From Sideroxydans sp. (GTDB lineage: Bacteria; Pseudomonadota; Gammaproteobacteria; Burkholderiales; Gallionellaceae): a stretch of 32,483 nt of DNA. Below the pieces are notes generated by a model. That model ran no database searches. It saw only the letters and a program-made list of their open reading frames with translations, and was not told the origin of the DNA. Location of the stretch: the NCBI GenBank assembly GCA_028687425.1, contig JAQUAD010000031.1:1-32483 (forward strand), in the 5' to 3' direction. The position numbers and the translations under genes were made by a program. Positions 1-14,613 of this stretch are shown piece by piece; the first letter of the stretch is position 1, and every line of letters begins with the position of its first letter.

Positions 1-321
1 CTGTTTCAACTCGATGCTGGGTCCCGGGAAATTGGCCGCGAGGATGCCGGTGCTGATGGCCTGCGCCGGCGGAGTGCCCGTGACATCGGAGAAGCCGAAG
101 GTGTACAGCACCCTGCCGTCGGCCATGGTGACGAAGCCGTCACCGGCTGTCAGATGCCTGCACACCACGCCGGGCGGTGCGCCCGCATCGGGCACGGCGT
201 CGCCGTTGGTGTCGCCCGGACATTGCACGAACACTGCAGCACCGGCCGGGGTCGCGGCGGCACCGAGTGCGGCGGCCAGCGCGAGCGGGAGCAGAAGTTT
301 GCGAAGGTTAACTGTACTCAT
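1..321 (-). CDS. Multicopper oxidase, N-terminal part (gene runs off window)
   Basis: Only the first 107 residues are visible; the frame is still open at base 1. An AGGAG ribosome site lies 7 bases before the ATG at 319-321. Residues 1-28 form a typical Sec signal peptide (basic start, Leu/Ala core, cleavage near AGA-AVF), so the protein is exported. A short Asp-rich stretch (DTNGDAVPDA) looks like a calcium-binding loop. The following YTFGFSDVTG and the AANFPGPSIEL stretch match the first cupredoxin strands of large bacterial multicopper oxidases, where a 'FPGP-I' segment precedes the first copper-binding His motif. That motif would lie outside the window, so copper ligands cannot be checked. 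It sits 63 bases after the beta-helix reading frame, apparently in the same operon. Large oxidases of this class include MofA-like proteins proposed to oxidise Mn or Fe; substrate here is unknown. Confidence 0.6.
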   Translation of the reverse strand, partial: MSTVNLRKLLLPLALAAALGAAATPAGAAVFVQCPGDTNGDAVPDAGAPPGVVCRHLTAGDGFVTMADGRVLYTFGFSDVTGTPPAQAISTGILAANFPGPSIELKQ

Positions 322-384
322 GATGTCTCTCCTTCCGGTTTCCATATCCGCCGGGATCATCCCGGCGGAACTTCATGTCTCGGT

Positions 385-2346
385 TCAGGGATTGGCCCCT
401 ATCCCGCCGAAGCTCAGCAAGCGGTAGTCGCCGTACAGCGGGCAAGTGCCGGGTGTGGCGCATATCTGGTACTGGGTGAGCGGGCCGAAGTGCACGTCTA
501 TCCAGTTGCCGCCCTCGTCGAACGCCCCGGCGGTGGCGATGCCGGTGGTCAGCTCGGGCTGCTGGATGGTCTGGCCCTGATCGCCGTTGAAGTACTCGGC
601 GACGAAGCCGGGATCGGTGGCGCTGTTGCTGGCGTCATAACCGGTGGTGCTGGTCAGGATGCTGTGCAGGGGATTCAGTTTGTCCGCACCGGCGTTCACA
701 TAATCCGGCCAGGTGCCCTGATGGATGGTGCCCAGCACGCCCAGGTCGGAATACACCGCCGGCTGGCCCGCCGCGATATCCGGCACCAGTCCGAAGCTGG
801 CCGGCACGGTGGCATTGTTGATCGCCCAGTAGAACGAGCGGTTGTGCCACACGATATTGTCGGTCAGTGTCGGGTTGGAGAACTGCGTCTTGTAGCCGGT
901 GCCCGCGCCGATGTTCCAGAACAGCAGGCGGCTGTGGACGCGCGACACGATACCGGCCGGTTGCGGCGACGACTGGTTGGGGCTGCCCGCGGCGAAAGCT
1001 GCGCCAGCCGTGCCGGAGCTGTCGTTGTTGGCCACGGTGTTGTTGTCGATGACAGCCTTCACCGTGTCCTGCAGCGAGATGCCGCCGCCGGCCGCGCCGG
1101 CCATGTTGTCCACCACCTTGTTGTTGCTCAGGGTCAGCTGGTACCAGCCGGCGGCACTGTTGTGGTTGCGGCGCACATCGAGACCGTTGACGAATTCGGC
1201 ACGGATGCCGCCGCCATCCCCTGCCCCGGCCTGATTGGCCTGTACCAGGTTGTTGCGCACCGTGACGTTACCGGTACCGGGCGACAGCGTCGGTGTGGTG
1301 GCCGCTGCCGCCGATGCCTTGCCGCCGACGAAGATGCCGCCGCCGGAGACGTTCAGCCCCTGGTTGAAGGTCTGGTTGAAGATCACCGTGTTGTCGGCGA
1401 TGGTGCCGCCGTTGTTGAAGCCCACGTGGCCGATGCCGCCGCCGCCGCCCATGCTGAAGTTGCCGCACACGAAGTTGCGGGTCACGCTGTAGTTGTTGTT
1501 GCCGTTGCACAGCGCGATGCCGCCGCCCGCCCCTTCATTGCTGCCGTTCTCGATGACCTGGTTGTGGTGGATGCGCACGAAGTTGTTCTTGGCGTTGACG
1601 TAACCGCCGAACCAGCCGTCATCGGCCGGCAACACAGCCGGGTCGAGCAGGTTCGGGTGACCGAGCCGGATGCCGCCGCCGAAGGTGCCGTAGTTACCCA
1701 TGATCTTGTTGTTGCTGATCTCCAGATAGTTGGCATAGCCGTTGACGAAGATGCCGCCGGCATTATCCGAACCGCTGATGCTGAAGCCGTCGATGCGCGC
1801 ATTACGCACGTTGACGAAGGCTTGCGGTCCGCTGGCCTTGGCCACCACCAGGATGCCGGGGCCCTCCTCGGTGTTGAACAAGGCAGGCTCGTTGTTGGGC
1901 GCATTGAAGGTGTTGGTTTGTCCCGGCAACAGGTCGAATCCGCCCGCGGCCAGCAACTGGTTCACCTTGGTGCGCCATGCCGCCAGCTTCTCGGCCGGTA
2001 CCTTGGCCGCGTTGATGTGCGTGGACGGTGCGCCCCAGCCCTGCAGGCGGACCATCTTGTTCATGATGACCAGCTCGTCGTAGGTCCCGGGCGGCACCAT
2101 GATCATGTCGCCGCGGTTGGCCGCGTCGATCGCCGTCTGGATCTTGCTGCCCGGGGCGACCACGCGGATCACGTTGGACGCGGTCGGCCCGTAGCCGCCC
2201 ACGGTCACCGTGACGCCGGTGATGCTGCGCTTGCCGTTGTCGCGGGTGACCTGCAACTGGCCGGTGGCAGCGCCGGTGGGCACGCTGGCGATGATGATGC
2301 CGTCGCTCCAGGAGACGATGGGCAATGTCACGCCGTCGATCTGCAC
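385..2346 (-). CDS. Right-handed beta-helix protein; probably the severed 3' part of the gene at 2413-5556
   Basis: The first possible start is a GTG at 2344-2346, but the same frame stays open upstream to a TAA at 2413-2415, where it joins the 1047-residue surface protein without any frame change. The first residues (VQIDG, SWSDGIIIASVP, GQLQVTRDNG) complete an IPT/TIG-like domain begun before that stop. Then comes PGSKIQTAIDAANRGD and PPGTYDEL, typical of the start of NosD/pectate-lyase-like parallel beta-helices, followed by many short Asn- and Gly-rich turns (SNNKI, IHHNQV, GGGI repeats) through about residue 480. The GTG has no convincing ribosome site and the piece has no signal peptide, so it is unlikely to be made and exported by itself. 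Its role in an intact protein would be surface or carbohydrate/mineral contact (inference). The multicopper oxidase gene follows after 63 bases. Confidence 0.65.
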   Translation of the reverse strand: MQIDGVTLPIVSWSDGIIIASVPTGAATGQLQVTRDNGKRSITGVTVTVGGYGPTASNVIRVVAPGSKIQTAIDAANRGDMIMVPPGTYDELVIMNKMVRLQGWGAPSTHINAAKVPAEKLAAWRTKVNQLLAAGGFDLLPGQTNTFNAPNNEPALFNTEEGPGILVVAKASGPQAFVNVRNARIDGFSISGSDNAGGIFVNGYANYLEISNNKIMGNYGTFGGGIRLGHPNLLDPAVLPADDGWFGGYVNAKNNFVRIHHNQVIENGSNEGAGGGIALCNGNNNYSVTRNFVCGNFSMGGGGGIGHVGFNNGGTIADNTVIFNQTFNQGLNVSGGGIFVGGKASAAAATTPTLSPGTGNVTVRNNLVQANQAGAGDGGGIRAEFVNGLDVRRNHNSAAGWYQLTLSNNKVVDNMAGAAGGGISLQDTVKAVIDNNTVANNDSSGTAGAAFAAGSPNQSSPQPAGIVSRVHSRLLFWNIGAGTGYKTQFSNPTLTDNIVWHNRSFYWAINNATVPASFGLVPDIAAGQPAVYSDLGVLGTIHQGTWPDYVNAGADKLNPLHSILTSTTGYDASNSATDPGFVAEYFNGDQGQTIQQPELTTGIATAGAFDEGGNWIDVHFGPLTQYQICATPGTCPLYGDYRLLSFGGIGANP

Positions 2347-2412
2347 ACTGCCGGTGCCCTGGCTGGCGCCGAAGCCGTGGTCGCGCAGGATGGTCTTGCC
2401 GTTGCTGCCGTC

Positions 2413-5400
2413 TTAGGCCGGATTGGGCACTTCTTCCATGCCGACCGAGACGATGGTCAGACGCGGCCACACATTGGGATCGGCGGGCGGCGGCGGCACA
2501 TAGGGGCCGTTGAAGCTCTGGCCGCCCTTGGTCTTGCCTTCCACCGAGTAGATCACCGGCACGCCGGCATCGAACTCGCAATCCAGCGGGAACTGGCCCG
2601 GGCCGGCAAAGGCTGCCACCGGTACTACCGGCGTATCCAGATAAGTGGTCTTGCCCGGCAGGTACTGGAAGGTGTAGCAGAACTGGCTGTACTGGCGGTT
2701 GAAGTGCGGGTCCACGATCATCTGGCCGAAGGTGGGCGAACCGGCGCGGGTGTCCTTGATCGGTCCCGGGTCGTTCATGCAGGTGGTGACCATGTTGGGC
2801 ATCACACCTGACGGGAACGGCGGGTTGATGGTGTAGGTGGACGGCACCAGCGCGTTGTAGGTGCCCCACTGGTCGGAATACACGCGGTCGATCTCGCGTC
2901 CGCTCCAGTCGCGGATGGAGATGGGCAACCATGACGGTGCATGCTTCTCGCCGAAGGTGGGTGCGTTCGGGTCGAACTCGTTGGCGGTGTCGTCGAGGAT
3001 GAAGCCCACGATATGGCCCGCCACCGGCACCTCGGTGAACAGGTAAAAGTCAGCCGGAGCATTCATGCCCTGGGCCACGGTCACCTTCTTGCGGTCGCAC
3101 TGGTTCCAGGTCTTGTTCGGGTTGGCCGGGTCGTACGTGGGGTTGTCCAGCATCTGATCGCTGAACAGGTTCAGGTACTGCGGGATCGGCAGCGGATCGC
3201 CCACGCACTCGGGCGGCAATGACAGCGGGCTGGGCACGGTGGCATCGCCGAAGGCCACGTTCTGGTCGCCGTTGCCCTGGTGCAGGTAGCCCGGGGGCGC
3301 GATACCTTCGACGATGTAGGTGCCGTTCGCCAGTTCTGGCTTACCTGCTCCGCCGCCGAAGGCATAGCCGCCGTCAAACACGGCCGGCCGCACCTGGTTG
3401 AAATTGCGCAGGCCGTCGTAGCAATCGGTGGTCACGCCGTTGGAGACGAATACCGCTCCCTGACAGCCGGTGGGCAGGCTGTCATCCCAGCTGTCGGTCC
3501 AGGCGACATCGATCGCATCGCCGTTGCTGTAACCGATCGCAGTGTTGCGCTTGCTGTCTTCAGGGCCCATGGGGGCACTGCCATCGCTCCAGCCGAACGG
3601 ATAGTTGTCGACATCGGCCAGACTGGCGGTATAGCCCTGCGAACTGAGGCCAAGACAGCCGGCTCCTGCGGGATCGGGTTGGTCGATCTTGCCGTCGTTG
3701 TCGCAATCGCGGTACAGGTTGATCTGCACGCGCGGCACGCCCGGTTCCCAGTTCTCGGCTGCTGCATAGCGCGGATCGTCCTCGGCGCGGGTGATGGCGT
3801 AGTGCACGATGCCGCTAATGCCGCCGTTCTCGCCCGGCGCGTAGTTGGCCTTGCCCCAGTCGATCACATTGGTCTGGCCGAGGAAGGTGGCGATACCCTG
3901 CAACAGCACGGGGCCGGTCTCGGTGCGCGACAGGTTGTTGCCGGTCGGTCCGACCAGCGGCGTGCCGGTGGCGGCGCCGGTGTCCGGGTCGGTGTCGAAC
4001 TGCGGTTGCGGATTGAGGCGGTCCCAGGTCGGCATGGTCCAGCCGTTGTGCGGCGGCACCGGACCGCCGTTGTCCACCACGATGGTGGCGCCGGTCGCCT
4101 TGTAGCGCAGGAAATCGACCTCGGCGATCAGCCAGTTGAAGAAGGGGAACACTTCATCGAACATGGCCACCCCGCTCGGATCGGTGGCTGCCGATTGGTA
4201 GATGCTGCCGTCGCGGAAGCGCAGGTTCATCGCCTGGTCGGGGATGCCCATCTCGCCCGGATCGCGGAAACCGTTCTGGTTGGTGTCGAAGAAGGCGCTG
4301 GCCTGATAGTGGCCGAACCAGTCGAACACCGGCACTTCATGCAGGTCGACATTGACCCCGCCCGGCGGCACCTTCACATCGGTGCTGGCGATGATGCGGT
4401 CGAGGAACTCGTCCCAGATCACCAGCTGGAAGGTACCGGCCGGGACATTGGGGATGGCGAACGTGCTGTCGGGATTGCACGGGCTGGTGTACAGCGCGCG
4501 TCCGCCGGCACCCGCCAGTTCGTTCAGGCCGATCCAGCACATGGGTACGGGATCGCCGTTGTAGAACGTGAAATTGGGCGGCCGCGACATGTGCTGGTTC
4601 ACCACCTTGCCGCTGATGGTGCTCACGCCCCTGAGGATGCTCCTGTCATTGATCTGCTTCACGAAACCGACGTCCACATGGTGTCCGGCCGGGCCGAACT
4701 CCTGGAAGAAGGCCGGCTCATTGGCCTTGACCCAGGCATCGATGCCTTTGGTGCCCTCGATGGTGGCGGTCTGGTGCCAGCTGGCATCGGGCGGGATCAC
4801 CTCGATGGTGTATTTGGCAGGGAACAGGTATTTGATGAGCGCCACGCCGTCCGGCCCGGACTTGATGAAACCGTTGCCCAGGGTCTGGATCTTGGGGCTG
4901 CCGTCCGGGTTGAAGAGAAAGCTGCCATCCGGGTTCTGCTGGTAGGTGGTGCCGATCTGGTTGCCGAACGCATCCAGTGTGACCTGGCCGCCGGATTGGC
5001 CAAAGGTGCCGCCGGCTTCCTTCAGCGTGATGCTGAAATTGGACAATCCAAGTTCCTGCGGCAGGTCGGGCGTGCCGTTGATGGGCTGGTTATCCTCGAA
5101 CACGAACACGGAGATCTGTGCGGTGGGGATGGGCGAGACGTTCACCACGATGTTCACCGAAGACTGTCCCGGTGCGATCGAGGCGCCGCCCATCTGGTAA
5201 CCGCTGCGCGGCAGCACCGAGACGTAATAGCGTTTGGCCGGGTCCAGTGCCAGATCGCTTGGCGATTTGGCAGGGTCGGTGCTGTCCCCTGCCGCGATCA
5301 CCGGCATGTAACTGGTGTGGAAGTTCAGCGCCAGGTTGCTGGCGTCGGCCGGCATGTTGGGGATGGAGGCCTTGGTGGCATCTTCCTCCACCAGCCAGCG

Positions 5401-5556
5401 GTAATCGGTCACCGCCGTCACGCCGTCCGGCCCGAACACATTGATGGTCAACGCCTGCGCGTCGAACTGGATGAACATGAGCAGGAACAGCGTACCCAGC
5501 GCACGTCCAAAGTCGCGTGCCGTCATCCTGAAAGCGTTCTCGAAATGGGTTGTCAT
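2413..5556 (-). CDS. Large secreted SdrD-B-like repeat protein, truncated by in-frame TAA
   Basis: 1047 residues. The start is ATG with GGGAGG four bases upstream. Residues 1-36 carry a basic N-region and hydrophobic core ending in DAQA, a Sec signal peptide. Two stretches resemble SdrD-B/Cna-B-like beta domains: about 415-490 (DTNQNGFRDPGEMGIPD) and about 575-650 (DCDNDGKIDQPDPAG), both with Asp/Asn-rich calcium-type loops. Several widely spaced cysteines fit disulfides in an exported protein; there is no CxxCH heme motif. The last residues (LTIVSVGMEEVPNPA, from about 1033) are the opening of an IPT/TIG-like domain that continues in the same frame after the TAA. Read through, the protein would be 1723 residues with a C-terminal beta-helix. 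It is first in an operon with the multicopper oxidase. Function is not known; a surface scaffold or adhesin is an inference. Confidence 0.75.
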   Translation of the reverse strand: MTTHFENAFRMTARDFGRALGTLFLLMFIQFDAQALTINVFGPDGVTAVTDYRWLVEEDATKASIPNMPADASNLALNFHTSYMPVIAAGDSTDPAKSPSDLALDPAKRYYVSVLPRSGYQMGGASIAPGQSSVNIVVNVSPIPTAQISVFVFEDNQPINGTPDLPQELGLSNFSITLKEAGGTFGQSGGQVTLDAFGNQIGTTYQQNPDGSFLFNPDGSPKIQTLGNGFIKSGPDGVALIKYLFPAKYTIEVIPPDASWHQTATIEGTKGIDAWVKANEPAFFQEFGPAGHHVDVGFVKQINDRSILRGVSTISGKVVNQHMSRPPNFTFYNGDPVPMCWIGLNELAGAGGRALYTSPCNPDSTFAIPNVPAGTFQLVIWDEFLDRIIASTDVKVPPGGVNVDLHEVPVFDWFGHYQASAFFDTNQNGFRDPGEMGIPDQAMNLRFRDGSIYQSAATDPSGVAMFDEVFPFFNWLIAEVDFLRYKATGATIVVDNGGPVPPHNGWTMPTWDRLNPQPQFDTDPDTGAATGTPLVGPTGNNLSRTETGPVLLQGIATFLGQTNVIDWGKANYAPGENGGISGIVHYAITRAEDDPRYAAAENWEPGVPRVQINLYRDCDNDGKIDQPDPAGAGCLGLSSQGYTASLADVDNYPFGWSDGSAPMGPEDSKRNTAIGYSNGDAIDVAWTDSWDDSLPTGCQGAVFVSNGVTTDCYDGLRNFNQVRPAVFDGGYAFGGGAGKPELANGTYIVEGIAPPGYLHQGNGDQNVAFGDATVPSPLSLPPECVGDPLPIPQYLNLFSDQMLDNPTYDPANPNKTWNQCDRKKVTVAQGMNAPADFYLFTEVPVAGHIVGFILDDTANEFDPNAPTFGEKHAPSWLPISIRDWSGREIDRVYSDQWGTYNALVPSTYTINPPFPSGVMPNMVTTCMNDPGPIKDTRAGSPTFGQMIVDPHFNRQYSQFCYTFQYLPGKTTYLDTPVVPVAAFAGPGQFPLDCEFDAGVPVIYSVEGKTKGGQSFNGPYVPPPPADPNVWPRLTIVSVGMEEVPNPA

Positions 5557-5794: not shown

Positions 5795-6568
5795 TCACAG
5801 TTGCCATGCCGGACTCAGAAACAGCGATGGACGCAGCGGCATGCCGGCGGGTATTGCTACTGTCCGGCTACGCTCGTCGCCGTAGTACTTGTCGATGACG
5901 CGTGCGAGGTAGGCATCACCGAAACGGATGCCGCAACGACGCAAGGCGGCTTCGATGCGGCTGACGTCTATGTGCGCGCCCGATGTCCTGTCTATCAGGT
6001 CGAACTCGGCCCGGATGTCCAGCACCCGCTCCATGGCGCGCACGATGTCGAGCATGCCGGTCGAATGCGGATTGGCGACATTGACGGTCTCGCCCTGCGC
6101 GTCCTCGCGCCGGATCAGGTACAGCGTGATGTGTGCGACGTCGGCCACGTCGATGATGTTGCGCCGCGCGCCGGCCCACACCTGGAAGCGCTGGCCGCGC
6201 GTCATGCGCTGATGCAGGAAGTTCAGCAGGGTGTGCGGGTTCGGTGTGCGGCCGGCCACCTGCGGCAGGCGCAGGATGAGGTGGCGCGGGCAGCGGCGCA
6301 CGCGCGCCTCCATGCGCAGTTTGTGTTGCACATAGGCGGTGTCGCGCACCGACGGGTCGTCGATGCTGCAGCTGCTGAAATACACGAAGCGCGTGTCCGC
6401 CGGACAGGCGGCGACCACGGCCTCGAAACGTTCGCGCTCGCGCAGGAACTCATAGCTGTCGCGGCAGCACGAGTTGGAGACGCCGGCCGCGTAGATGCAG
6501 GTGTCGTGCAGGCGCTGCGCACCTTCCCGCATGAATGCCTGCGCGATCAGTCCGGAGCCTTCGATCAT
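5795..6568 (-). CDS. SDR-family NAD(P)-dependent epimerase/dehydratase
   Basis: 257 residues, extended short-chain dehydrogenase type. The N-terminus GSGLIAQAF (residues 4-12) is the dinucleotide-binding turn of the Rossmann fold. S65/S66 (FSSCSID) and Y79-x3-K83 (YVQHK) form the catalytic Ser-Tyr-Lys set. Members of this family interconvert nucleotide-activated sugars. The start ATG overlaps the stop of the sugar transferase gene in an ATGA arrangement, so the two are translationally coupled and probably act together, preparing the sugar that starts the repeat unit. At 257 residues it is shorter than the usual 300-340 of UDP-sugar epimerases, so the exact reaction cannot be named. The substrate as a nucleotide sugar is inferred from family and context. 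Confidence 0.75.
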   Translation of the reverse strand: MIEGSGLIAQAFMREGAQRLHDTCIYAAGVSNSCCRDSYEFLRERERFEAVVAACPADTRFVYFSSCSIDDPSVRDTAYVQHKLRMEARVRRCPRHLILRLPQVAGRTPNPHTLLNFLHQRMTRGQRFQVWAGARRNIIDVADVAHITLYLIRREDAQGETVNVANPHSTGMLDIVRAMERVLDIRAEFDLIDRTSGAHIDVSRIEAALRRCGIRFGDAYLARVIDKYYGDERSRTVAIPAGMPLRPSLFLSPAWQL

Positions 6569-7296
6569 GATGCGCTCCCCGCTGCGGCAGCTTCCCCGCG
6601 CCCGAACACGTTCCTGCGCAGCAGCACGCTGCAGAAGGTGGCCCACAGTATCTTCAGGTCCAGTGCGGTCGAACGATCCTCGATGTAGCCGAGGTCGAGC
6701 CGGATGGTCTGCTCCTTGGTCAGCAGGTCGCGCCCGGACACCTTGGACAGGCAGGTGACGCCCGGCTTGACCGACAGATAAGGCGCGCGGTGGCGGCCGT
6801 ACAGCACCGACACCTCGGGGATCTCCGGGCGCGGCCCGACCAGCGTCATGCTGCCCAGCACCACGTTCAGGAAATTGGGCAATTCGTCGATGCTGGTCCT
6901 GCGGATGAAGTTGCCGACGCGGGTGATGCGCGGATCGTGGCGCTGGTGGAAATGGAAATCCAGGTCCTGGTGCGCGCTGTAGTCGTACAGTTCGGGGAAA
7001 CGTTCGCGCGCATCCGCATACATGCCGCGCAGTTTGAAGATGCGGAACGGCTTGCCGTCCAGACCGACCCGGGTCTGGATGAACAGCGGATTGCCGCGGC
7101 TTTCCAGACGGATGGCGATGGCGGCGACGAGGATGATCGGCAGCGCACAGCACAACAGCACGGAACCGAGCAACAGGTCCAGTCCGCGTTTGGCGAACAG
7201 ATAGGCCGTTAGCCGCCACTGCCGCGGGGCCGCCGGTACGCGGCTGTCGTGTACATCGGGGAAGAACATCTCACTGCGCTGTAATCGGGTCGCCAT
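6565..7296 (-). CDS. Undecaprenyl-phosphate sugar phosphotransferase (bacterial sugar transferase family)
   Basis: 243 residues. The start is fixed by a perfect AGGAGG five bases before the ATG at 7294-7296. A single hydrophobic segment (about 40-63) anchors it in the inner membrane, as in the small PglC-like monotopic transferases. The family core is clear: KRGLDLLLG, RVGLDGKPFRIFKLRGM (about 76-92), the DELPNFLNVVLGSMTLVGPRPE block, and KPGVTCLSKVSGR. This enzyme transfers a sugar-1-phosphate from a nucleotide sugar to undecaprenyl phosphate, the committed step of exopolysaccharide repeat-unit assembly. It is separated from the main cluster by 355 bases, so it may have its own promoter together with the epimerase gene it overlaps. 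The sugar it uses cannot be told from sequence. Confidence 0.88.
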   Translation of the reverse strand: MATRLQRSEMFFPDVHDSRVPAAPRQWRLTAYLFAKRGLDLLLGSVLLCCALPIILVAAIAIRLESRGNPLFIQTRVGLDGKPFRIFKLRGMYADARERFPELYDYSAHQDLDFHFHQRHDPRITRVGNFIRRTSIDELPNFLNVVLGSMTLVGPRPEIPEVSVLYGRHRAPYLSVKPGVTCLSKVSGRDLLTKEQTIRLDLGYIEDRSTALDLKILWATFCSVLLRRNVFGRGEAAAAGSAS

Positions 7297-7325
7297 GTCG
7301 TCCTCCTGCACTGATCGGTGGTCAC

Positions 7326-7348
7326 GCGACGCTTCGGAAATGCGTCGC
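7326..7348 (-). other. Leader hairpin GCGACGC-9-GCGTCGC
   Basis: Perfect 7-base inverted repeat lying 30 bases upstream of the sugar transferase start, within its probable mRNA leader. It may influence mRNA stability or translation; role unproven. Confidence 0.35.
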
Positions 7349-7567
7349 CTTTGCGTGGTGCCATCATGTGCAGGAACGCGGGCGCGATAAATATGCTGGG
7401 GGCCGTATTGGGAAGGGACGCAATATGCAATCTGCAGGCTGGATTCGTGTAGCGCGGGCCGTTGCCGCACCCCATCGGGTCGGGTCCAGTCTGTAGCCCG
7501 AGTAAAGCGAAGCCGGTAGTGCGCGCGCCCTCGCGTTTTGCAGAAGTGCTGCAAGGGCAGCGAGCAG

Positions 7568-7591
7568 GTCGCGCGCAACGTCGCGCGCGAC
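7568..7591. repeat. GC hairpin GTCGCGCGC-6-GCGCGCGAC
   Basis: Perfect 9-base inverted repeat 61 bases beyond the stop of the GT2 gene. No T-run follows on either strand, so it is not a classic terminator; it could protect the 3' end of the upstream transcript. Confidence 0.4.
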
Positions 7592-7651
7592 TACAGTGCG
7601 ATCGTGTCTGCTGCAGGGGTGTCTATGGGAAGTGCTGCAGTCCCGGAAGGC

Positions 7652-8572
7652 TCATCGCCAGTAGCTGCTCAGCATGCCCAGCTGCCGCTTGATGCCGACC
7701 GGCAGCGCGGCTTCGGCCTTGCCCAGCTGGTAGCCGGCCAGTTTCAGCAGCGTGCGCAGCGCGGCGGAGGGGATCAGTTGCGGCGCATGGCGGGCCAGCC
7801 ACAGCAACTCCGAACGCACGAAGCGCGCGCCCTCGCCTTCCGGCCTGCCCAGCCGCTGCGTCAGCCAGGTTTCGCGCGCATGCATCACGCCGAGGTCGAA
7901 GTAGCGGCGGAATTCCTGTGCCATGCCGTAATCGTGCGAGTGGTGCACGGCGGCATCGGCGCGGTAGGCCAGCTTCCAGCCGGACAGCAGCATGCGCGCC
8001 GCCACGCACATGTCCTCGCCGAAGATCACATCGCTCGGGAAGCCGCCCACCGCCAGCAGCGCGCGCCTGCGGTAGGCGGCGAATGAGTTGGACAGGAAGG
8101 CCGTCCTGATGCCCAGCGCGGGGATGTCGGCGGCCGAGCGGACGCAACTGCTGTCCGGGTAGTTGAAGTGACGCGCATGCGCTGCGATGGGTCCGGCATC
8201 GGGATGCGGCAACTGGCGGCCGCCCACGGCCCCCACGGCGGGATCGTCGAACTCGGCCAGCAGGTTGCCGATGGCGTGCGGCGTGGCGAGGATGGCATCC
8301 TGGGTGAGGAACACGATGAACTCGGCATCGCCCAGTTGTTCGACCGACCGCTGGCGCGTGCCGCCGTGATTGAAGGTGGCGCGCGGGATGCGCTGCACGC
8401 GCAGGCCGGCCGCCTGCGCCAGCAGCGGCGTGTCGTCGTTCGATTCGGAATCGATGGCCAGCGTGGGCGGCCTGACGCGCTGCGCCGACCAGGCATCCAG
8501 CCAGCGCCCCCAGGCATTGCCCGCATTCAGCGTGGGCACGCAGACGGCGACTTTGCTCGGGTCGAGGGGCAT
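7652..8572 (-). CDS. Glycosyltransferase family 2 (rhamnosyltransferase-like)
   Basis: 306 residues from the ATG at 8570-8572, chosen because GGAG lies seven bases upstream and because the protein then begins just before the first Rossmann strand (KVAVCVPTLNAG). Residues 41-48 (DSESNDDT) give the nucleotide-sugar Asp region, and the FNHGGTR motif at 67-73 is characteristic of GT2 enzymes related to dTDP-rhamnose rhamnosyltransferases. QDA at 91-93 stands in for the metal-binding DxD. A later GEDMCVAARM block supplies the acidic catalytic-base region. It is a cytoplasmic/peripheral enzyme adding one sugar to the lipid-linked repeat unit. It is the only glycosyltransferase other than the initiating enzyme in this cluster. 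The rhamnose assignment is by motif similarity only. Confidence 0.82.
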   Translation of the reverse strand: MPLDPSKVAVCVPTLNAGNAWGRWLDAWSAQRVRPPTLAIDSESNDDTPLLAQAAGLRVQRIPRATFNHGGTRQRSVEQLGDAEFIVFLTQDAILATPHAIGNLLAEFDDPAVGAVGGRQLPHPDAGPIAAHARHFNYPDSSCVRSAADIPALGIRTAFLSNSFAAYRRRALLAVGGFPSDVIFGEDMCVAARMLLSGWKLAYRADAAVHHSHDYGMAQEFRRYFDLGVMHARETWLTQRLGRPEGEGARFVRSELLWLARHAPQLIPSAALRTLLKLAGYQLGKAEAALPVGIKRQLGMLSSYWR

Positions 8573-8586
8573 GGCACGCTCCGCTC

Positions 8587-9417
8587 TCACGGCGACGGCA
8601 GCCGCCATTTGGAATAGTCGGTCTGCAACAAGGCGGACAGGCCGTCGAGCTCGCTGTGGTAGAGCTGCACCAGTGCCTGCGGATAGTCGGCGGCCGGCTT
8701 CTCCATCGTGCCGGCTTGTGGCCGGTATACCAGCCAGTCGACCAGATGGCTGTGCTTGAGGCGGCCGAGGAAGTTGGCGTAACCGGCCTGACGCAGGCGC
8801 AGTGCGACCTGTTTCGCCAGACGTGCCAGCAGCCGGCTGCGCGGTTCGCGCGCGGGGTTGATCCTCTGGTGCAGCACTTCCGGCACGTAATCGGCATCCA
8901 CGCCGAGAAAGTCGAAGATCCTTCGCGCGAAGCGCTGCGGGTCGGCTTCCAGTTCGTCAAAATCCAGCACCAGCACCGCGTCGCGCGCGAACAGCGACAG
9001 GATGTGGTGCAGGTTGGAGCAATATTTGCCTTCCTCGACCAGGAAGGGAAGCTGCTGCAAGGCCTGTTCGAACGTGCCGTCGAACATCCCCACCCGCAGC
9101 AGGTGCAGATAGGAGGAATACGCGCGCTCGAAAGGGTTGCGCAGGCAGCAGATCAGTTTTGCCCGCGGGTTGTAGGCGTGCAGGCGGCGGATGGCGTCGG
9201 GACTGGCGAAGTAGTCGTGGCTCAGTTCGCCGCACAGGCTGTCGGGCGGCGCGGCACGGAAGAAACTTTCGTACCAGTCGCTGCCGCGCTGGTGGTATCT
9301 GTCGAAGAAATAGATGTCCTTGCCGGCCGGCACGAACAGCTGCGGGTGCGGACGGATCGCCTCGAAGATCCAGGTCGAACCGCTCTTGCTCGGACCGAGG
9401 AAGATGAAATCGACCAT
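8587..9417 (-). CDS. Sulfotransferase (PAPS-dependent)
   Basis: 276 residues from the ATG at 9415-9417, preferred because GGGAGG lies just upstream and the P-loop-like motif follows almost at once; an ATG six codons earlier (9433-9435) is a weaker alternative. The 5'-phosphosulfate loop is PSKSGSTW (residues 9-16), and the 3'-phosphate-binding segment RNPFERAYSSY starts at residue 93. These are the two signatures of PAPS-using sulfotransferases. A His in the HDYF stretch (about 67-70) may be the catalytic base, by analogy. No signal peptide, so it acts in the cytoplasm, probably on the lipid-linked sugar unit before export. It lies 28 bases after the polymerase-like gene and 14 before the GT2 gene. 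Sulfation of the polysaccharide is inferred from position. Confidence 0.85.
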   Translation of the reverse strand: MVDFIFLGPSKSGSTWIFEAIRPHPQLFVPAGKDIYFFDRYHQRGSDWYESFFRAAPPDSLCGELSHDYFASPDAIRRLHAYNPRAKLICCLRNPFERAYSSYLHLLRVGMFDGTFEQALQQLPFLVEEGKYCSNLHHILSLFARDAVLVLDFDELEADPQRFARRIFDFLGVDADYVPEVLHQRINPAREPRSRLLARLAKQVALRLRQAGYANFLGRLKHSHLVDWLVYRPQAGTMEKPAADYPQALVQLYHSELDGLSALLQTDYSKWRLPSP

Positions 9418-9445
9418 GCTGCCTCCCTTCGTCATCTCGTCGAGC

Positions 9446-10681
9446 TCACAGCGCGTACGCCAGCAGCGTGACCGCGATGGCGACCAGCGTGCAGCCGTAC
9501 AGAATCGCCCATTCCGGCCGCGGCGCGCCGGCCGTCCTGAAGCTGATCGCGCCCGACAGCAGCGCGTTCACCACATACGGCACCAGATACAGGTAATAGC
9601 GCCCCGACTCGAACACGTGCACCACGCCGGTCAGGAAGAAGAACACGGTCAGCACTGCCAGCAACGCGATGAAGGCGCGCGCGCCCTCCTCGCCGAAACG
9701 GGGCGACAGGCAGAAGCGCAGGAAACGGTGGAAGGCGAACAGCAGCATCAGGTACAGCGGCAGCAGCGCGACGAAGAACTCGGTCGCGCCGGGCAGGATG
9801 ATGAGGCCGGCGTAGAACACCACCAGACTGACCAGCGGGTTGTAGGATTTGTCGTGCGTGTATTCGAGCGCCAGCGCCACGCCGTCTCCCAGCCCCGGGT
9901 ACAGCATGTCGAGCCAGCGCGGATCGGCCAGCAGCCGCGTGACCAGATATGCCGCGGCCATGGTCGATACCGAGAACAGCAGCAGCCAGCCCAGCCGCCG
10001 GCCCCAGCCGGCGCGCGCGATGCGGCGCGACAGCAGCCAGTCATAGCCTTCGCGCAGCAGGATGAAGGCCGACAGCAGCACGAAGCTGCGATCCTCCACC
10101 ACCAGCAGCGCCATGGCGAACGCGAGGCCCAGCGACGAGGCGCGGTCGCGCACGAAGAACGGCAGCAGCGAACACAGGATGAACAGGATGTCGGTCGAGA
10201 TCTGCATCACGCCGTAGGCCACCGAGGGGAAGCACAAAGACAGCAGGAACACGCGGATGTGCCGGTTGCGGCTGGCCTCGCTGCTGCCGCTCAGGTAGAG
10301 CACCAGCATGGCGGCGAAGGTGCCGGCCAGCGTCAGGTTGGCCAGCTTGGCGAAGTAGTACACCGGCGGGATGTCGGCCACCGTCTTGTAATGCAAGGCG
10401 CCGTGGATCATGTGGTAGCCGCTGCTGGCCTGCACCGCGCCCAGCACGTCGCCCAGTTCGTTGAGGTTGAACAGGCTGTCGGCGATCTGCATCACGGCAC
10501 GCGCGTAGTGGCCGTAGATGAAGGCGTAGCCGCTCTGTTCGCCCTTCTGCAACAGCATCACGTTGCGGTATTCGTCGGGCCAGTTGAGCGCCGGGAACAG
10601 GAAACCGTAGATCGCCAGGATCAGGCCCGAGCCGCCGAGGTAGACGGCGGCGGCGCGCAGCGATGACAGGCTGATGCTCAT
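9446..10681 (-). CDS. Polytopic membrane protein, probable Wzy-like polysaccharide polymerase
   Basis: 411 residues with about ten hydrophobic segments spread along the chain, a long periplasmic-type loop after the first helix (NWPDEYRNVMLLQKGEQ), and a C-terminal run of helices. The first helix is followed by an acidic/aromatic stretch as in GT-C-fold glycosyltransferases and some O-antigen polymerases. It follows the flippase gene by four bases and precedes the sulfotransferase gene by ten to 28, and no other polymerase candidate is in the cluster, which argues for Wzy. Wzy proteins are poorly conserved and cannot be identified by motif, so a GT-C transferase is the main alternative. Confidence 0.6.
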   Translation of the reverse strand: MSISLSSLRAAAVYLGGSGLILAIYGFLFPALNWPDEYRNVMLLQKGEQSGYAFIYGHYARAVMQIADSLFNLNELGDVLGAVQASSGYHMIHGALHYKTVADIPPVYYFAKLANLTLAGTFAAMLVLYLSGSSEASRNRHIRVFLLSLCFPSVAYGVMQISTDILFILCSLLPFFVRDRASSLGLAFAMALLVVEDRSFVLLSAFILLREGYDWLLSRRIARAGWGRRLGWLLLFSVSTMAAAYLVTRLLADPRWLDMLYPGLGDGVALALEYTHDKSYNPLVSLVVFYAGLIILPGATEFFVALLPLYLMLLFAFHRFLRFCLSPRFGEEGARAFIALLAVLTVFFFLTGVVHVFESGRYYLYLVPYVVNALLSGAISFRTAGAPRPEWAILYGCTLVAIAVTLLAYAL

Positions 10682-10685
10682 GGCG

Positions 10686-11924
10686 TCAAATCCTGCAGTC
10701 GTACTGGCGGTTGAACAGGTAAAGCATGTTGCCGCGGCTCAGCATGTTGGTGAGCACGAAAGCCAGCGCTGCGCCGTAGGCCTGGAAGTTGGCGATCAGC
10801 AGCAGCGTGAGCGGCAGCGCGAACTGCGCGGTGAACAGCGCATTGGAACGCAGCAGGTCGTTGCGGTCGGCAAGGATCAGCTGGGTCTCCATCATGACGA
10901 ACAGCACGTTGGCCAGCATGCCGATCAGCATCAGCATGGCCAGCGTGGCGGCCGTCTCGAAGCCGCTGCCGACCTGGGAGAACACCCAGTCGAAGCCCAG
11001 TTCGCCCACCAGCAGCAGCAACAGGCCGGCGACGACGATGGGCGACATCGCACGCTTGAGGTAAGGCACCGGCGATTCGCTGCGATGCAGCAGGCCGGCC
11101 AGGCGCGGCGTGGCGATGCCGCGGAACACCGCGCTGAACGCGCCGACCACCATGGTCACGCGGAAGGCTGCGTTGTAGATGCCGACATCGGCCGGTGTGG
11201 CCAGCATGCCGAGGAAGAACAGCGGCGACCATACGATGAGCGTGTTCGACAGCGCGACCCAGACGCCCTGCACCGCATCCTTCAGCAGCGACAGGCAGCG
11301 GCGCAACAGTCCCGTCCACAGGATGCGGCAGCCGGCGTAGCGGTACACCAGTGCCAGCGCCAGCGCGGCGGCCAGCAGGTTGGCCTGCAGCAACGCATCC
11401 GCCGCCTCGCGGTAGCCGGCCGGACCGCCCTGCGCCAGCATCAGCAGCAACACCAGCAGTGGCACGCTGCCGGCCTCGATGAACACCGACAGCGCGGTGC
11501 GGCCGATGCCCTTGAGCAGCGCGGCGCTGCTCCACATCAGGGTGAACGGCAGGCAGGAGTACAGCGCGACGCGGTACAGCGCGGGGGATTCGCCGGGGAA
11601 CAGCAGCGGCACGGCATGCCGTTCCAGTGCGCTGCCGGCCAGCAGCAGCAGCATGCCGCCTGTCAGCAGGTAGACCAGTATGTCGCCGCCCAGCCGCTGC
11701 AGCGCGTCATGCTCGTGCGCGCTGTGGTGGTGGCTGGCGCGGCGCAGCAGCACGCCGTCCAGGCCCAGCCGCAACAATTGGCTCAGCATCACCACCAGGG
11801 CCAGCGTGAAGTAGAAATAGCCCGAGCCGCGCGAGCCGATGCTCTGGCCCAGGTAGGCTACCAGCAGCAGGGTGAACATCGCGCCGCCGGCTTTGGAGAG
11901 GATCGCGCTGAGCAGGGTCATCAT
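10686..11924 (-). CDS. Polysaccharide flippase (Wzx/MOP superfamily)
   Basis: 412 residues with about 12 hydrophobic helices. The N-terminus (LSKAGGAMFTLLLVAYLGQSIGSRGSGYFYFTLA, here described from residues 9-42) has the Gly-rich first-helix pattern and 'G..GYF' turn of Wzx/RfbX proteins. The internal AALLKGIGR and VGIYNAAFRVTMV segments fit the family too. It would flip undecaprenyl-linked repeat units across the inner membrane for polymerisation. GGAG seven bases upstream supports the ATG at 11922-11924. It lies 18 bases after the acetyltransferase gene and 4 before the polymerase-like gene, so it is within one operon. Confidence 0.82.
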   Translation of the reverse strand: MMTLLSAILSKAGGAMFTLLLVAYLGQSIGSRGSGYFYFTLALVVMLSQLLRLGLDGVLLRRASHHHSAHEHDALQRLGGDILVYLLTGGMLLLLAGSALERHAVPLLFPGESPALYRVALYSCLPFTLMWSSAALLKGIGRTALSVFIEAGSVPLLVLLLMLAQGGPAGYREAADALLQANLLAAALALALVYRYAGCRILWTGLLRRCLSLLKDAVQGVWVALSNTLIVWSPLFFLGMLATPADVGIYNAAFRVTMVVGAFSAVFRGIATPRLAGLLHRSESPVPYLKRAMSPIVVAGLLLLLVGELGFDWVFSQVGSGFETAATLAMLMLIGMLANVLFVMMETQLILADRNDLLRSNALFTAQFALPLTLLLIANFQAYGAALAFVLTNMLSRGNMLYLFNRQYDCRI

Positions 11925-11942
11925 GATGGCGCTCCGCTGTCA

Positions 11943-12575
11943 TCAGGCCGAGGCCGTGCGCTCGGTGCGCGCCAGCATGCGCAATGCCTCGGGGATGCCT
12001 TGCTCGCCCTGGCCGCAGATGCGCCGGATGTAGGGTTTCAGTTCGCGGTAGTCGCGCTCCCACCACCTGGAGGCGGCGATGGCCGCGCACAGGGCGGCGG
12101 AGAAGCGCATGCGCAAGGGATGCGCGGGCACGCCGGCGACGATCTGGAACGCCGCCACGTCGCGGCTCACCACGGCGCCGGCCCCGATCACCGCGCCGTC
12201 GCCTACGCTGACGCCGGGCAGGATGATGGCGTCGGCGCCGATCCACACGTCGTGCCCGATCACCACGTCGCCGCGCGGCGCCATGAAATCGGCGCGCTCG
12301 AGTGAGCGGTCGATCAGGTAGAACGGAAAGGTGGACAGTGCGTCCAGCGCATGCACCTGGCCGGACGACATGATCTTCACCCCGCGCGCGACCGAGCAGT
12401 AGTTGCCGATGCGCGTGGTCGAGCCGATGCCGCGGATGTCGGCGAAGCTGCTGATGTAGCTGTATTTGCCGATGTGCACATCGCCCCGGACCGAGGCCAG
12501 CGGCGAGATGCGGCGCCCCCGCGGCCGGGCGCGCAGCTTGAGCGCGGTGTAGAGCGTGACGAGCAGGTCTCTCAT
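11943..12575 (-). CDS. Hexapeptide-repeat acetyltransferase (CatB/XAT-like)
   Basis: 210 residues from the ATG at 12573-12575, which overlaps the stop of the GH16 reading frame (ATGA). The centre is a left-handed beta-helix of hexapeptide repeats (VHIGKY, TRIGNY, VVIGHDVWIGADAIILPGVSVGDGAVIGAG). H75 in GQVHALDALSTFPF corresponds to the catalytic His with its following 'StfPF' typical of the xenobiotic acetyltransferase subgroup. Ends with a C-terminal helical part (about 160-210). Such enzymes acetylate sugars using acetyl-CoA and function as trimers in the cytoplasm. Within this cluster it probably decorates the repeat unit. The same frame stays open far upstream to 13448, but that upper part is the shadow of the GH16 gene. 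Confidence 0.83.
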   Translation of the reverse strand: MRDLLVTLYTALKLRARPRGRRISPLASVRGDVHIGKYSYISSFADIRGIGSTTRIGNYCSVARGVKIMSSGQVHALDALSTFPFYLIDRSLERADFMAPRGDVVIGHDVWIGADAIILPGVSVGDGAVIGAGAVVSRDVAAFQIVAGVPAHPLRMRFSAALCAAIAASRWWERDYRELKPYIRRICGQGEQGIPEALRMLARTERTASA

Positions 12576-13387
12576 GGCAGCGTCCCTCCGTCGCTGGTCC
12601 AGACCCGCACATAGTCGGTCTGGAAGGGGGTGGGGAATCCCTCCGCGCTGGCCGTGTGTTTCAGGTCGGCACGCACCCCGAACGACAACACCACATCGAG
12701 CGCCTGGTGCCAGTGGTCGTTGCGGCGCGACTGCACCTCGCGCCCGTCGACATACCAGCTGATCCGCTGCGCGTCCCATTCGCAGCCGTAGACGTGGAAG
12801 TCGTCGCGCGGGTCCCACGGTGCCATCCAGCTGCGCTCCTCCTGCAGCGGCAGGTGCCCGGTGAAACCCGGCTGTTGGAACACGTGCACGTTGGTGTCGA
12901 CGATGCGCACGTCGCGGCGGCGCTGGGTGAGTTCGGCGAAATCGATCTCGGTCCATTCGTTCGCATCCTGGCGATAGGCCCAGAACGCCGGCGCGACGCC
13001 GGGGTAGCGGCTGGCCGCCCGGATGCGCGCCTCGAAATAGCCGTAGCGCAGCGGCGCCGCACGGCTCTTCAGGATGCCGGACCGGTAATACAGCGTCCAG
13101 CGGCCGCGCCGGTGTTCCTCGTAGTCCATGCGTATCTGCAGCTTGCCGTCGTGCACGCTGACGTTGTCCGGCTCCCACGACCAGACGCCTCAGTCCGCCA
13201 CGTCGTCGTCCCACTTGGCATGGTCGACCGCGTTGCCGTCGAACTCGTCCGAATATTGCGGCAGCAGCTGCCAACCCTTGTGTCCGCTGGCCAGCGGCTG
13301 GATCCCGGCCGCCTGTGCGTGGCCGGCCAGCAGGAAGGCCGGCAGGAAGGCCGGCAGCAGGAGCAGGTACAGGGTCGGGCGCGGCAT
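12572..13387 (-). pseudogene. GH16 family glycanase, interrupted by in-frame TGA
   Basis: Reading from the ATG at 13385-13387 gives a signal peptide (residues 1-26, MPRPTLYLLLLPAF...HAQA) and the mature start QLLPQYSDEFDG and KWDDDVAD typical of GH16, then a TGA at 13190-13192 (codon 66), then the same frame resumes with GVWSWEPDNVSVHDGKL and runs to 12572. A Trp codon TGG would be expected at the stop. The catalytic motif EIDFAE (E147, D149, E152 of the restored 271-residue protein) is intact, as is the sugar-binding RSGILKSR region. GH16 enzymes cut beta-glucans and related chains; in polysaccharide operons they trim or release polymer in the periplasm or outside. The gene starts two bases after the Wzz-like gene. 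A sequencing error or readthrough cannot be ruled out. Confidence 0.78.
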
Positions 13388-13389
13388 GC

Positions 13390-14613
13390 TCAGCGCCTCC
13401 AGGCCAGGTGTTCGCGCAGCTCGTGCCAGCGCGCATGCCGACCCGCATCCTGCTGCGTGCGCTGCAGGACCAGCCGGGCGAACAGCCACAGGATGGACAG
13501 CAGCAGGGTGAACACGGTGGCCAGCAGCACGATCAGCACGCGGCGCGGGCCGCTCTCTTCGTCCGGCGCCAGCGCCGGGTCGACCACCTGGATCACCACC
13601 GAGTTGCGCGCCTCGTCCACGCGCGCGTTCTCGTACTGTTTGGCCAGCATCTCGAACACCGCCTGCTGGTATTTCATGTCGCGCAGTTTGCGCAGGTATT
13701 CCAGTCCGGCTTCCGGCATGCGACCGGTGGCCACCATGATGTCGCCCTCGCCGCCCCGGTCATTGCGTTCCAGTTTGCCGATCTGCGCGTTCAACCCGGC
13801 CAGTTCCTGCCGTGCCTGGATCAGGTCCGGATTGCCCGCAGCGGCATAGTTGCGCATGGAGGCGATCTGCACTTCCTTGGCGGCGGCCTGCGCGCGCAGC
13901 GTGGCCACCGCTTCGATGATGGCCCTTCCCTGGCTGTCGAGGTCGATCACGCCGGTGCGTTCCTGCGTGCGCTGCAGCGCGTCCTCGGCCTGGGCCAGTT
14001 TGTCCCGTGTCAGGCCGAGTTGCCGTTCGACGAACAGGCGGCGCTGCGCCGCCTCGGTGATGGCGATGCGCCGGGTCAGCTTCTCCAGTTCGTCCACATA
14101 GGCGTTGGCGATGTCCGCCGCGCGCTGTGCATCCCCGTCCTCGACCGTCACGCTGATCAGGCCGTCGGCGCCGTTGCCGATCGATACCTGCTTGTCCAGC
14201 GCCTCGCGCGTCTCGGCCAGGCTCCCGGTGCCATACAGTGTCTGCAAGCTGAAGCGTTCGATCAGTGCGTCCGCCACCGAGCGGCTCTTGAGCATGCCGA
14301 TGTAGATGTCGGCCGGGTTCTTCAGGCCGAGCGCGCCGCCCAGTCCGCCGCTGCCGCCGCCGACCGACGACAGTTCCGCCAGCGCGCCCAGGGTCATGCC
14401 GCTCAGGCCGGAATGATCCTCCTGCGGCGGCAGGATCACTGCCTTCGCGCTGTACACGGCGGGCAACAGCAAGGCGATCGCAGCACTGAGGATGGCGGCG
14501 GCAACAGTCGCGCGCAGGATGTCGCGCTTCGCGCGTGCGACGACCAGCAGCAGGTCGAGCGGATCGACTGTGTCCTCATCCAGCCGGGTGAATTTTGCGG
14601 TCATGTCGTTCAT
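13390..14613 (-). CDS. Wzz-like polysaccharide co-polymerase/chain-length regulator
   Basis: 407 residues. GGGAG lies seven bases before the ATG. Two membrane helices, about 37-55 and 362-383, flank a large periplasmic region with long Ala/Leu/Gln coiled coils (about 180-330), the standard PCP layout. The N-terminal DEDTVDPLDLLLVVAR and the PAVYSAKAVILPP segment after the first helix match Wzz/GumC-type proteins. The chain ends shortly after the second helix, with no Walker motifs, so it lacks the C-terminal tyrosine kinase found in many PCP-2a proteins and no separate kinase is in the window. It controls polymer length and links the inner-membrane machinery with the exporter encoded just upstream. 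Confidence 0.85.
   Translation of the reverse strand: MNDMTAKFTRLDEDTVDPLDLLLVVARAKRDILRATVAAAILSAAIALLLPAVYSAKAVILPPQEDHSGLSGMTLGALAELSSVGGGSGGLGGALGLKNPADIYIGMLKSRSVADALIERFSLQTLYGTGSLAETREALDKQVSIGNGADGLISVTVEDGDAQRAADIANAYVDELEKLTRRIAITEAAQRRLFVERQLGLTRDKLAQAEDALQRTQERTGVIDLDSQGRAIIEAVATLRAQAAAKEVQIASMRNYAAAGNPDLIQARQELAGLNAQIGKLERNDRGGEGDIMVATGRMPEAGLEYLRKLRDMKYQQAVFEMLAKQYENARVDEARNSVVIQVVDPALAPDEESGPRRVLIVLLATVFTLLLSILWLFARLVLQRTQQDAGRHARWHELREHLAWRR

Follow-up and report, generated by a model that had tools for sequence, protein, structure and literature searches.

To our knowledge, the copper site of the multicopper oxidases (MCOs) described so far lies within a single protein or is formed by identical subunits. 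In ceruloplasmin and the other six-domain MCOs the cluster lies between the first and the last domain of a single chain, and fungal heterodimeric laccases and the Mnx complex, which also have more than one kind of MCO subunit, reportedly keep the whole copper site within one subunit. Six-domain MCOs occur as monomers, and in the two-domain MCOs, for which types A, B and C have been defined, the trinuclear cluster lies at the subunit interface (PMC13151041), where domain 1 of one subunit meets domain 2 of its neighbour. Among the open-licence titles listed, we found none on a site common to two different gene products.

Sideroxydans lithotrophicus ES-1 carries at Slit_1812-1818 three tandem MCOs/cupredoxins which, in the consulted sections of PMC5566968 and PMC12016527, are reported as higher on magnetite, the comparison in PMC12016527 being with Fe(II)-citrate; according to Table 1 of PMC12016527, levels of the Slit_1816-1818 proteins are higher when magnetite cultures are late. 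The three MCOs were described there as not homologous to earlier metal oxidoreductases (PMC5566968). MofA, OmpB and other large MCOs are likewise extracellular and have SCO1 and a mofC-like cytochrome in their vicinity (PMC5566968); they are described as single large chains, as opposed to the three genes found here.

Here we analyze a window of 32,483 nucleotides of a Sideroxydans contig, in which a sequence-only reading had proposed an undescribed unit of one oxidase and one scaffold. On both counts that proposal has to be revised. The unit comprises three cupredoxin genes (A, B and C) and the scaffold gene (S), and a homologous cluster was already reported for ES-1 (PMC5566968, PMC12016527). 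The gene families, including SCO1 and the mofC-like cytochrome, are those of the published Slit_1812-1818, so the gene set itself is not new. In the ES-1-like genome G028 the order cytochrome, SCO1, two small genes, C-S, B, A is that of Slit_1812-1818, with S fused to C, whereas in the present genome S is separate and stands in front of A. The consulted accounts of the ES-1 cluster (PMC5566968, PMC12016527) describe neither a division of ligands between 1817 and 1818 nor a separable scaffold; the putative split site and the separable scaffold are thus the features that go beyond them.

The locus and its continuation on a second contig

Table 1. Positions of the features discussed; coordinates refer to the window unless a contig is named.
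Feature	Position	Strand	Remarks
Multicopper oxidase A, first 107 aa	1..321	-	Ends at contig edge, base 1
Scaffold S, C-terminal part (S2)	385..2412	-	TIG-like and right-handed beta-helix region
Scaffold S, N-terminal part (S1)	2413..5556	-	1047 aa; SdrD_B/Cna-B-like region
Polysaccharide cluster	5795..17035	-	Neighbour of S, outside the unit
Remainder of A	contig C27, L004:18537-19394	-	Same genome

The secreted multicopper oxidase that had been read at the edge of the window exists as an ORF running off base 1, with a signal peptide (judged by eye) and a DTNGDAVPD loop. However, the window holds only about 107-120 aa of A, which have no Pfam match at E <= 1, so that A is identified as an oxidase through its relatives and through contig C27. 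The two pieces of A are separate and unjoined, positions 1-107 of the A model falling in the window and 115-401 on C27, and they are 79-83% identical to A of the relative L005, which is itself 46-47% identical to A of G028 and G023. At the end of C27 the rest of A is followed by the cupredoxin genes B and C and, beyond these, by genes for a subtilase, SCO1/SenC, a cytochrome and a CusF-like protein (at 20.0 bits, below the cut-off of 27). The start of the window contig (C51) and the end of C27 together carry SCO1 and a mofC-like cytochrome beside the three cupredoxin/MCO genes in tandem.

The scaffold had been read as a secreted, giant surface protein with TIG and beta-helix modules. S1 has a signal peptide (by eye) and an SdrD_B domain above the Pfam cut-off (37.4 bits against 29.7), and its homologues were found in seven loci at 39.6-84% identity. 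S2 is a 675-aa stretch in frame with S1 that, by eye, does not begin with a signal peptide. Its beta-helix match falls slightly below the cut-off (25.4 against 25.9 bits), and its TIG match is weak (E 0.041; 14.3 bits against 20.9). The scaffold also gives a weak match to fn3_3 (polysaccharide lyase 4, domain II; E 0.034); NCBIfam matches of S2 (NosD-like, 23.1 bits against 300) were discounted. SdrD-type surface proteins share the SdrD_B domain with S but differ in their LPXTG anchor and SD repeats, since neither LPxTG nor a run of four SD occurs in the proteins P0001 and P0002.

The two parts of S lie in one frame, but in the present assembly an in-frame TAA at 2413-2415 separates them. S1 and S2 form a single ORF in all 27 other loci where both parts fall within the stretch, and S as its own gene is about 1,700-2,000 aa long; L011, which has S1 only, shows a separate break, with S1 in two ORFs and a stop between them. 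Because dN/dS against L005 is 0.22 before the stop and 0.26 after it, both parts have been under constraint. This constraint, and the fact that on C27 the genes B and C and the piece of A are all open, make it doubtful that the scaffold system is decaying in the present Sideroxydans genome, a reading in which the TAA parts the signal-peptide half from a beta-helix half that has no such peptide. It is equally possible that the TAA is a sequencing error, and decay in this one genome would be compatible with the shared copper site that we propose below for the family.

Association of the scaffold with the cupredoxin genes

We compared 32 A-B-C loci from 31 genomes, G455 supplying two (L009 and L069) and L005 and L032 being one record that was counted once. 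L011, on a contig of 8,031 bp, and G773, with its pieces on two contigs, were excluded from the 32; no A was found in the genome of L011. For our own genome the ligand counts used the C27 piece of A only, and for C n=31, as C falls outside the L081 stretch. The idea that scaffold and oxidase belong together is borne out by the search of other genomes: S adjoins A-B-C in 27 of the 31 loci besides our own, and within these 27 it is fused to A in three and to C in eight (L033-L036, L079, L080, L086, L087). One further locus has C-S approximately 7 kb away from A. Among 245 Nitrospirota genomes, A (E <= 1e-30) occurs in 14, S in 16 and both in 14, the two genomes with S only being cases where the locus runs off the contig end (Fisher P 5e-21, a value that ignores kinship and serves as illustration only). 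The fusions and the co-occurrence rule out a chance pairing of S with the oxidase.

The unit is present in three phyla, Pseudomonadota, Nitrospirota and Verrucomicrobiota. SCO1 accompanies it in at least 9, a mofC-like gene in at least 5 and a subtilase in at least 16 of the 32 stretches, these counts being lower bounds for stretches of at most about 23 kb. The A model at E <= 0.001 matches 24 of 61 relatives, mostly generic MCOs below 70 bits, and just six, below 1e-100, were counted as A. Since no relative of A was found on plasmids (tblastn with one A protein, E <= 1e-40) or in viral contigs (two short patterns from alignment A4), the sets searched do not point to carriage by plasmids or phages.

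Copper ligands of A, B and C

The models of the three proteins each match the other two over both domains, and the ligands are divided between A and B. Domain 1 of A contains H..H.HG and HCHx5Hx4M, which make up the type 1 site and four histidines of the trinuclear cluster, in 32 of 32 loci. Because domain 2 of A has no HxH or other ligand pair at the equivalent sites, we ruled out that A is a complete MCO. Domain 2 of B contains HPxHxH and H[S/D]H (31 Ser, 1 Asp) in all 32, providing the other four cluster histidines with no Cys at the H[S/D]H site, and HxH is absent from the corresponding sites in domain 1 of B. In C the equivalent places are without any ligand pair (31/31). The copper ligands on which the sequence-only reading had made its oxidase depend are therefore present in A of this genome, on C27, as in its relatives. 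All eight ligand columns are among the 36 invariant columns of 425 in the A alignment, and the five motif histidines of B are among the 46 of 445 in the B alignment, in sets whose lowest pairwise identity is 34% for A and 33% for B.

Among PDB entries A is closest to 3g5w (E 1.6e-17), whose domain 1 motifs align except for one single-residue insertion, and B to 2zwn (E 5.6e-15 for the whole protein), whose domain 2 has HAMHSHG and HDH and is likewise without the Cys. We take both structures to be type C two-domain MCOs. Domain 1 of A has their domain 1 motifs, including the type 1 copper in the N-terminal domain (32/32), and domain 2 of B has their third motif and their Cys-less fourth motif, although domain 2 of B compared with type C domain 2 alone gives weak scores (12.6-13.9 bits near HxH and 0.6 near HDH). 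In type C enzymes one chain holds both halves of the cluster, whereas here two proteins hold them and a third holds none. Ceruloplasmin resembles A, B and C together in having six cupredoxin domains in total but differs in being a single chain with its type 1 coppers placed otherwise.

Stray motifs were seen as HxHD elsewhere in three A proteins, as HCH in a glycine/methionine-rich loop of one B (L074) and as HxH in three C proteins, the copies of L033 and L034 lying immediately ahead of where the third motif falls in B. AlphaFold2 gave a mean pLDDT of 43.8 for A (alignment A6, 6 rows) and of 45.9 for B (alignment A5, 5 rows), models too poor to support an A:B interface.

A proposed copper site shared between two gene products

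Our reading of these patterns is that the genes probably encode a heteromeric oxidase in which one active site is common to A and B and which is mounted on S. What the sequences show is the gene set, its fusions and co-occurrence and the division of ligands; the complex, its number of sites, its substrate, its binding to mineral and its location are inferred. We lean slightly towards the stricter form, an obligate heterotrimeric MCO or 'split ceruloplasmin' whose only copper site would be that of A and B, with C as a dead structural subunit and S as a metal-pinning scaffold, the whole being one unit across the three phyla. The window would then contain the scaffold and the oxidase start of a four-part secreted machine. 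A, B and C would be paralogues derived from a trimeric two-domain type C MCO, the three subunits having become different proteins with one of three ancestral sites retained. A would supply the whole type 1 copper site and half of the cluster histidines from its first domain, B the other half from its second, and C would be copper-less. Electrons from the substrate would enter through the type 1 copper of A, and the A:B interface would be where O2 is reduced. With its Cna-B-like and beta-helix modules, S would keep the complex at the cell surface or on mineral, separately or on the N-terminus of A or the C-terminus of C according to lineage, and copper could be supplied by SCO1/SenC and the CusF-like protein. 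The likeliest task would be oxidation of Fe(II), perhaps of Mn(II), at solids, and such metal oxidation is plausible as the function, given the raised protein levels in ES-1 on magnetite; the templating of a mineral product suggested by the sequence-only reading would be more speculative. Some points count against this proposal. Among them are the stray motifs and the weak scores of domain 2 of B described above and the limited tail sharing reported below. One host lineage with a related locus is a Thermodesulfovibrionales MAG, and we assume that some such hosts may be anaerobes, which would be a poor fit for an O2-reducing enzyme. The stop in S argues against a working unit in the present genome, and PMC12016527 attributes canonical MCO motifs to both Slit_1817 and Slit_1818, which argues against a split site.

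It is improbable, in our judgment, that A, B and C are instead three independent cupredoxin proteins that form an electron-transfer relay and not an oxidase, A being a type 1 copper electron carrier or a homo-oligomer and B and C surface-binding folds. That account agrees with the treatment of the ES-1 proteins as separate cupredoxins in the consulted sections of PMC12016527 and with the cytochrome gene in the cluster, and the A-B-C complex is so far a prediction. However, A retains its HxH and HCH half in 32 of 32 loci despite a second domain without a pair, B, which has no type 1 Cys, retains the two pairs that complement it in every one of the 32, and neither half of a cluster is obviously useful without a partner. 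MCOs of the PcoA/CueO kind oxidize Cu(I), and this, with the SCO1/SenC and CusF-like genes downstream, would suit a surface system for copper handling or resistance (SCO1, CusF-like protein and MCO) with Cu(I) as substrate and the scaffold as matrix. We consider it distinctly improbable, as a Pfam scan of eight L004 proteins revealed no copper efflux protein and, in the data consulted from PMC12016527, levels of the ES-1 homologues on magnetite exceed those on Fe(II)-citrate. Just as improbable to us is an extracellular laccase complex oxidizing phenols, lignin or humic matter, hence acting on organic matter rather than mineral. A two-domain MCO of Cellvibrio does work as a laccase, its substrates also including Fe2+ according to the conclusion of PMC13151041, and the fn3_3 match and the beta-helix of the scaffold would agree with such a role; but the host shares its genus with the ES-1-like iron oxidizer G028, and the expression data consulted from PMC12016527 point to solid iron.

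If A and B do share one site, expressing a single gene, the usual way, would yield an inactive protein, and the motif-based call of Slit_1817 and Slit_1818 each as an MCO would need revision. An oxidase built on a surface scaffold would also offer a molecular hypothesis for microbial oxidation of solid Fe(II).

The polysaccharide cluster that had been read next to the scaffold and oxidase genes was recovered, with an epimerase-like gene (by eye), GT2, a sulfotransferase, a flippase, a hexapeptide transferase, Wzz and Poly_export/SLBB. Among the other loci searched, this set occurs only in the nearest relative, L005/L032, so we set it aside as a neighbour and not a part of the unit; L074 has one single Wzz match and not the full set. 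C and S share a C-terminal module in 7 of the 20 examined loci having S, and C and the subtilase share one in 9 of 22, the comparison covering the 22 of 32 loci that lack a C-S fusion and for which the C gene was fetched, with L082 left out. In the main list the tail of C also occurs in S, the subtilase or another adjacent ORF in 13 of these 22 loci, so that tail sharing as a general rule is only partly borne out; for 9 of the 15 tails having any match, the top match falls in the tail's own locus.

The interrupted scaffold gene, and the rest of oxidase A on a second contig

The giant secreted scaffold protein S is encoded in the window, a contig of a 2.79-Mb draft genome, as an N-terminal part (S1) and a C-terminal part (S2) separated by an in-frame TAA, and is followed by the start of A, one of three neighbouring two-domain cupredoxin (multicopper oxidase, MCO) proteins, A, B and C. 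The giant scaffold of the sequence-only reading is upheld for its SdrD_B domain and less firmly for its beta-helix and TIG domains, and here the TAA divides it. In all 27 other loci having both parts within the stretch, S1 and S2 form a single ORF, and the interruption between them was observed in our genome only. The dN/dS values against the nearest relative, L005, are 0.22 for S1 and 0.26 for S2, a similar constraint on either side, so that the TAA is recent or a sequencing error; our strain may have lost its scaffold through it. The Pedosphaera homologue (L011) also has an in-frame stop, a different break lying within S1, and a search of that genome found no A.

Our genome has only two Cu-oxidase_2 matches, both close to the end of another contig, C27. 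On its minus strand a 286-aa remainder of A covers model positions 115-401, the window part covering positions 1-107, and is followed by B (427 aa), C (642 aa, with an Ig/cadherin-like tail) and a subtilase. Because a single contig in L005 (84% identity across S1) bears S, A, B, C, the subtilase and SCO1, there is good reason from gene content to place the two contig ends next to each other. The sequence-only reading proposed to look beyond base 1 for further genes, a cytochrome among them; past the subtilase, C27 carries genes for an SCO1/SenC protein, a protein with cytochrome c and periplasmic-binding domains, and a CusF-like protein (20.0 bits, below the cut-off of 27). Just past the last of these lies a large histidine kinase, a possible sensor of the system.

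Features of the window and of compared loci
Feature	Location	Strand	Remarks
S1 ORF, 1047 aa	window 5556-2413	-	SdrD_B domain above Pfam cut-off
In-frame TAA	window 2413-2415	-	splits scaffold gene
S2 stretch, 675 aa	window 2412-385	-	same frame as S1, after TAA; beta-helix match slightly below cut-off, weak TIG match
Start of A, third ORF	runs off base 1 of window	-	no Pfam match by itself
Sulfotransferase	window 8587-9435	-	inside polysaccharide cluster
Class V aminotransferase (SufS-like)	window 20744-23322	-	beside SufBD protein
Multi-PAS histidine kinase	L004 (C27):6196-9489	-	weak dCache match
ORFs sharing C/subtilase C-terminal module	L004:12387-14657 and L004:15269-17194		module alignment
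Pedosphaera scaffold homologue	L011:3912-6299		in-frame stop

Partition of the copper ligands between A and B

Domain 1 of A carries H..H.HG and HCHx5Hx4M in 32 of 32 proteins, so the copper ligands sought beyond base 1 are there; by analogy with known MCOs these motifs would supply four type 1 copper ligands and four trinuclear-cluster histidines. No ligand pair was found at the equivalent places of A domain 2, and none of those looked for is present in B domain 1. Domain 2 of B has HPxHxH and HSH in 32/32 by alignment (HDH instead of HSH in one); a fixed-spacing pattern missed the B protein of L076, whose motifs are present but wider apart. In C the pair is absent at the places inspected (31/31). 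Stray pairs do occur, namely HxHD at another place in three A proteins, HCH within a loop of one B (L074), and HxH in three C proteins, in two of which (L033, L034) it immediately precedes the position of B's third motif. Invariant columns number 36 of 425 in A and 46 of 445 in B, and include all the ligands.

By profile search, the nearest solved relatives are the two-domain enzyme 3g5w for A and the two-domain laccase 2zwn for B. Domain 2 of 2zwn carries HDH where other MCOs carry HCH, and B likewise lacks the Cys, in a stretch where its alignment to 2zwn scores weakly when judged alone. The trinuclear cluster of two-domain MCOs, which are trimers, is built from two protomers, and enzymes of type C bind their type 1 copper through the N-terminal domain (PMC13151041). 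The simplest reading of the motifs is that A, B and C would be diverged subunits of such a trimer, in which one of three sites remains. Among the papers listed by literature searches on split or heteromeric MCOs, one set of them mostly on fungal laccases, none deals with a copper site common to two gene products, judging by titles and abstract openings.

Distribution, gene order and fusions

A search with S1 returned seven loci, from Pseudomonadota, Nitrospirota and Verrucomicrobia according to record titles, and both S2 and A occur in six of them, the exception being an 8-kb contig. A is rare yet widely spread: at E <= 1e-30 it is found in 2/398 Pseudomonadota and 7/399 genomes of our own order (overlapping samples, each including our genome), in 3/288 genomes of the phylum of L009 and in 14/245 Nitrospirota, the phylum of L007. 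No relatives of A matched among 72,556 plasmid records or in the viral contigs searched. Of the 245 Nitrospirota, 14 have both A and S, two have S without A and none has A without S; of 61 relatives, six have both (A at E <= 1e-100, S at E <= 1e-30) and one has S alone. All three S-only cases lie at contig ends.

The order A-B-C is found in 32 loci (31 genomes), with C within the stretch in 31. When our own locus is set aside and the same pairing is sought in the remaining 31, S adjoins the set in 27. S is separate in 16 loci, in front of A in 15 and after C in one (L007); it is fused in front of A in three (L009, L068, L069) and behind C in eight (L033-L036, L079, L080, L086, L087), four of these eight ORFs extending to the end of the fetched stretch. 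In L081 a C-S fusion lies ~7 kb away from A, and contig ends cut L070, L073 and L082; in the genomes of the last two, S sits on a different contig. The S-A fusions group together in a tree of A (support 96/94), and a minimum of two events, whether gains or losses, is needed to account for the C-S state. That S is fused to one end of the set in some loci and to the other end in others would be difficult to account for if the products did not act together. The scaffold and oxidase therefore do stand as a conserved unit, as the sequence-only reading had it, although that unit also includes cupredoxins B and C. One genus holds two distant versions of the set, with separate S (L004, L032) versus fused C-S (L033-L036), and A is only 46-47% identical between L005 and L033/L035, which suggests that the set may have been transferred horizontally.

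Relation to a published cluster and possible function

The sequence-only reading did not recognise the pairing as a described system, but a homologous cluster with three tandem MCOs, Slit_1812-1818 of Sideroxydans lithotrophicus ES-1, is already published (PMC5566968; PMC12016527, the sole paper found on locus tags 1816-1818). Because G028, a genome of the same genus, shows the Slit_1812-1818 order (cytochrome, SCO1, two small genes, C-S, B, A), we take Slit_1818 as A, Slit_1817 as B and Slit_1816 as C-S. PMC12016527 reports protein levels of the cluster as higher in late magnetite cultures than with Fe(II)-citrate, with percentiles of 57.2-79.3 versus 13.7-15.3 for Slit_1816, 42.7-74.8 versus 0 for Slit_1817 and 9.0-29.5 versus 0 for Slit_1818. 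It ascribes canonical MCO motifs to Slit_1817 and Slit_1818, describes Slit_1816 as a bigger protein whose domains resemble adhesins and polysaccharide lyases, and lists similar clusters in Burkholderiales, Anaeromyxobacter and Steroidobacteraceae (PMC12016527). Elsewhere, mofA is mentioned in Leptothrix ochracea (PMC11412304), and Manganitrophaceae genomes are said to have two novel MCOs each (PMC9040806). In outline the gene set has been described before; what is new, to our knowledge, is the split site and the status of the scaffold as a separable partner across three phyla, both of which can be tested directly. Our analysis establishes the genes, their conservation and the ligand partition; as to function, we infer that A and B (with C) would make up one oxidase, carried on S, that acts on Fe(II) (or Mn(II)) at solids.

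A further hint comes from the C-terminal module of C, a kind that S also carries in 7 of 20 loci (L007, L008, L071, L072, L074, L076, L078; 44-71% identity) and the subtilase in 9 of 22 (L004, L005, L006, L072, L074, L078, L083-L085; 141-261 aa aligned, 49-79% identity), as if the tail marked parts destined for one place; it may be a shared tail for docking or processing. Of 22 tails compared, 15 have any match, and for nine the top match lies within their own locus.

Elsewhere in the window, the sulfotransferase is kept in L005 at 69.6%, and the polysaccharide cluster possibly makes a sulfated exopolysaccharide. The aminotransferase region looks like an ordinary Suf cluster.
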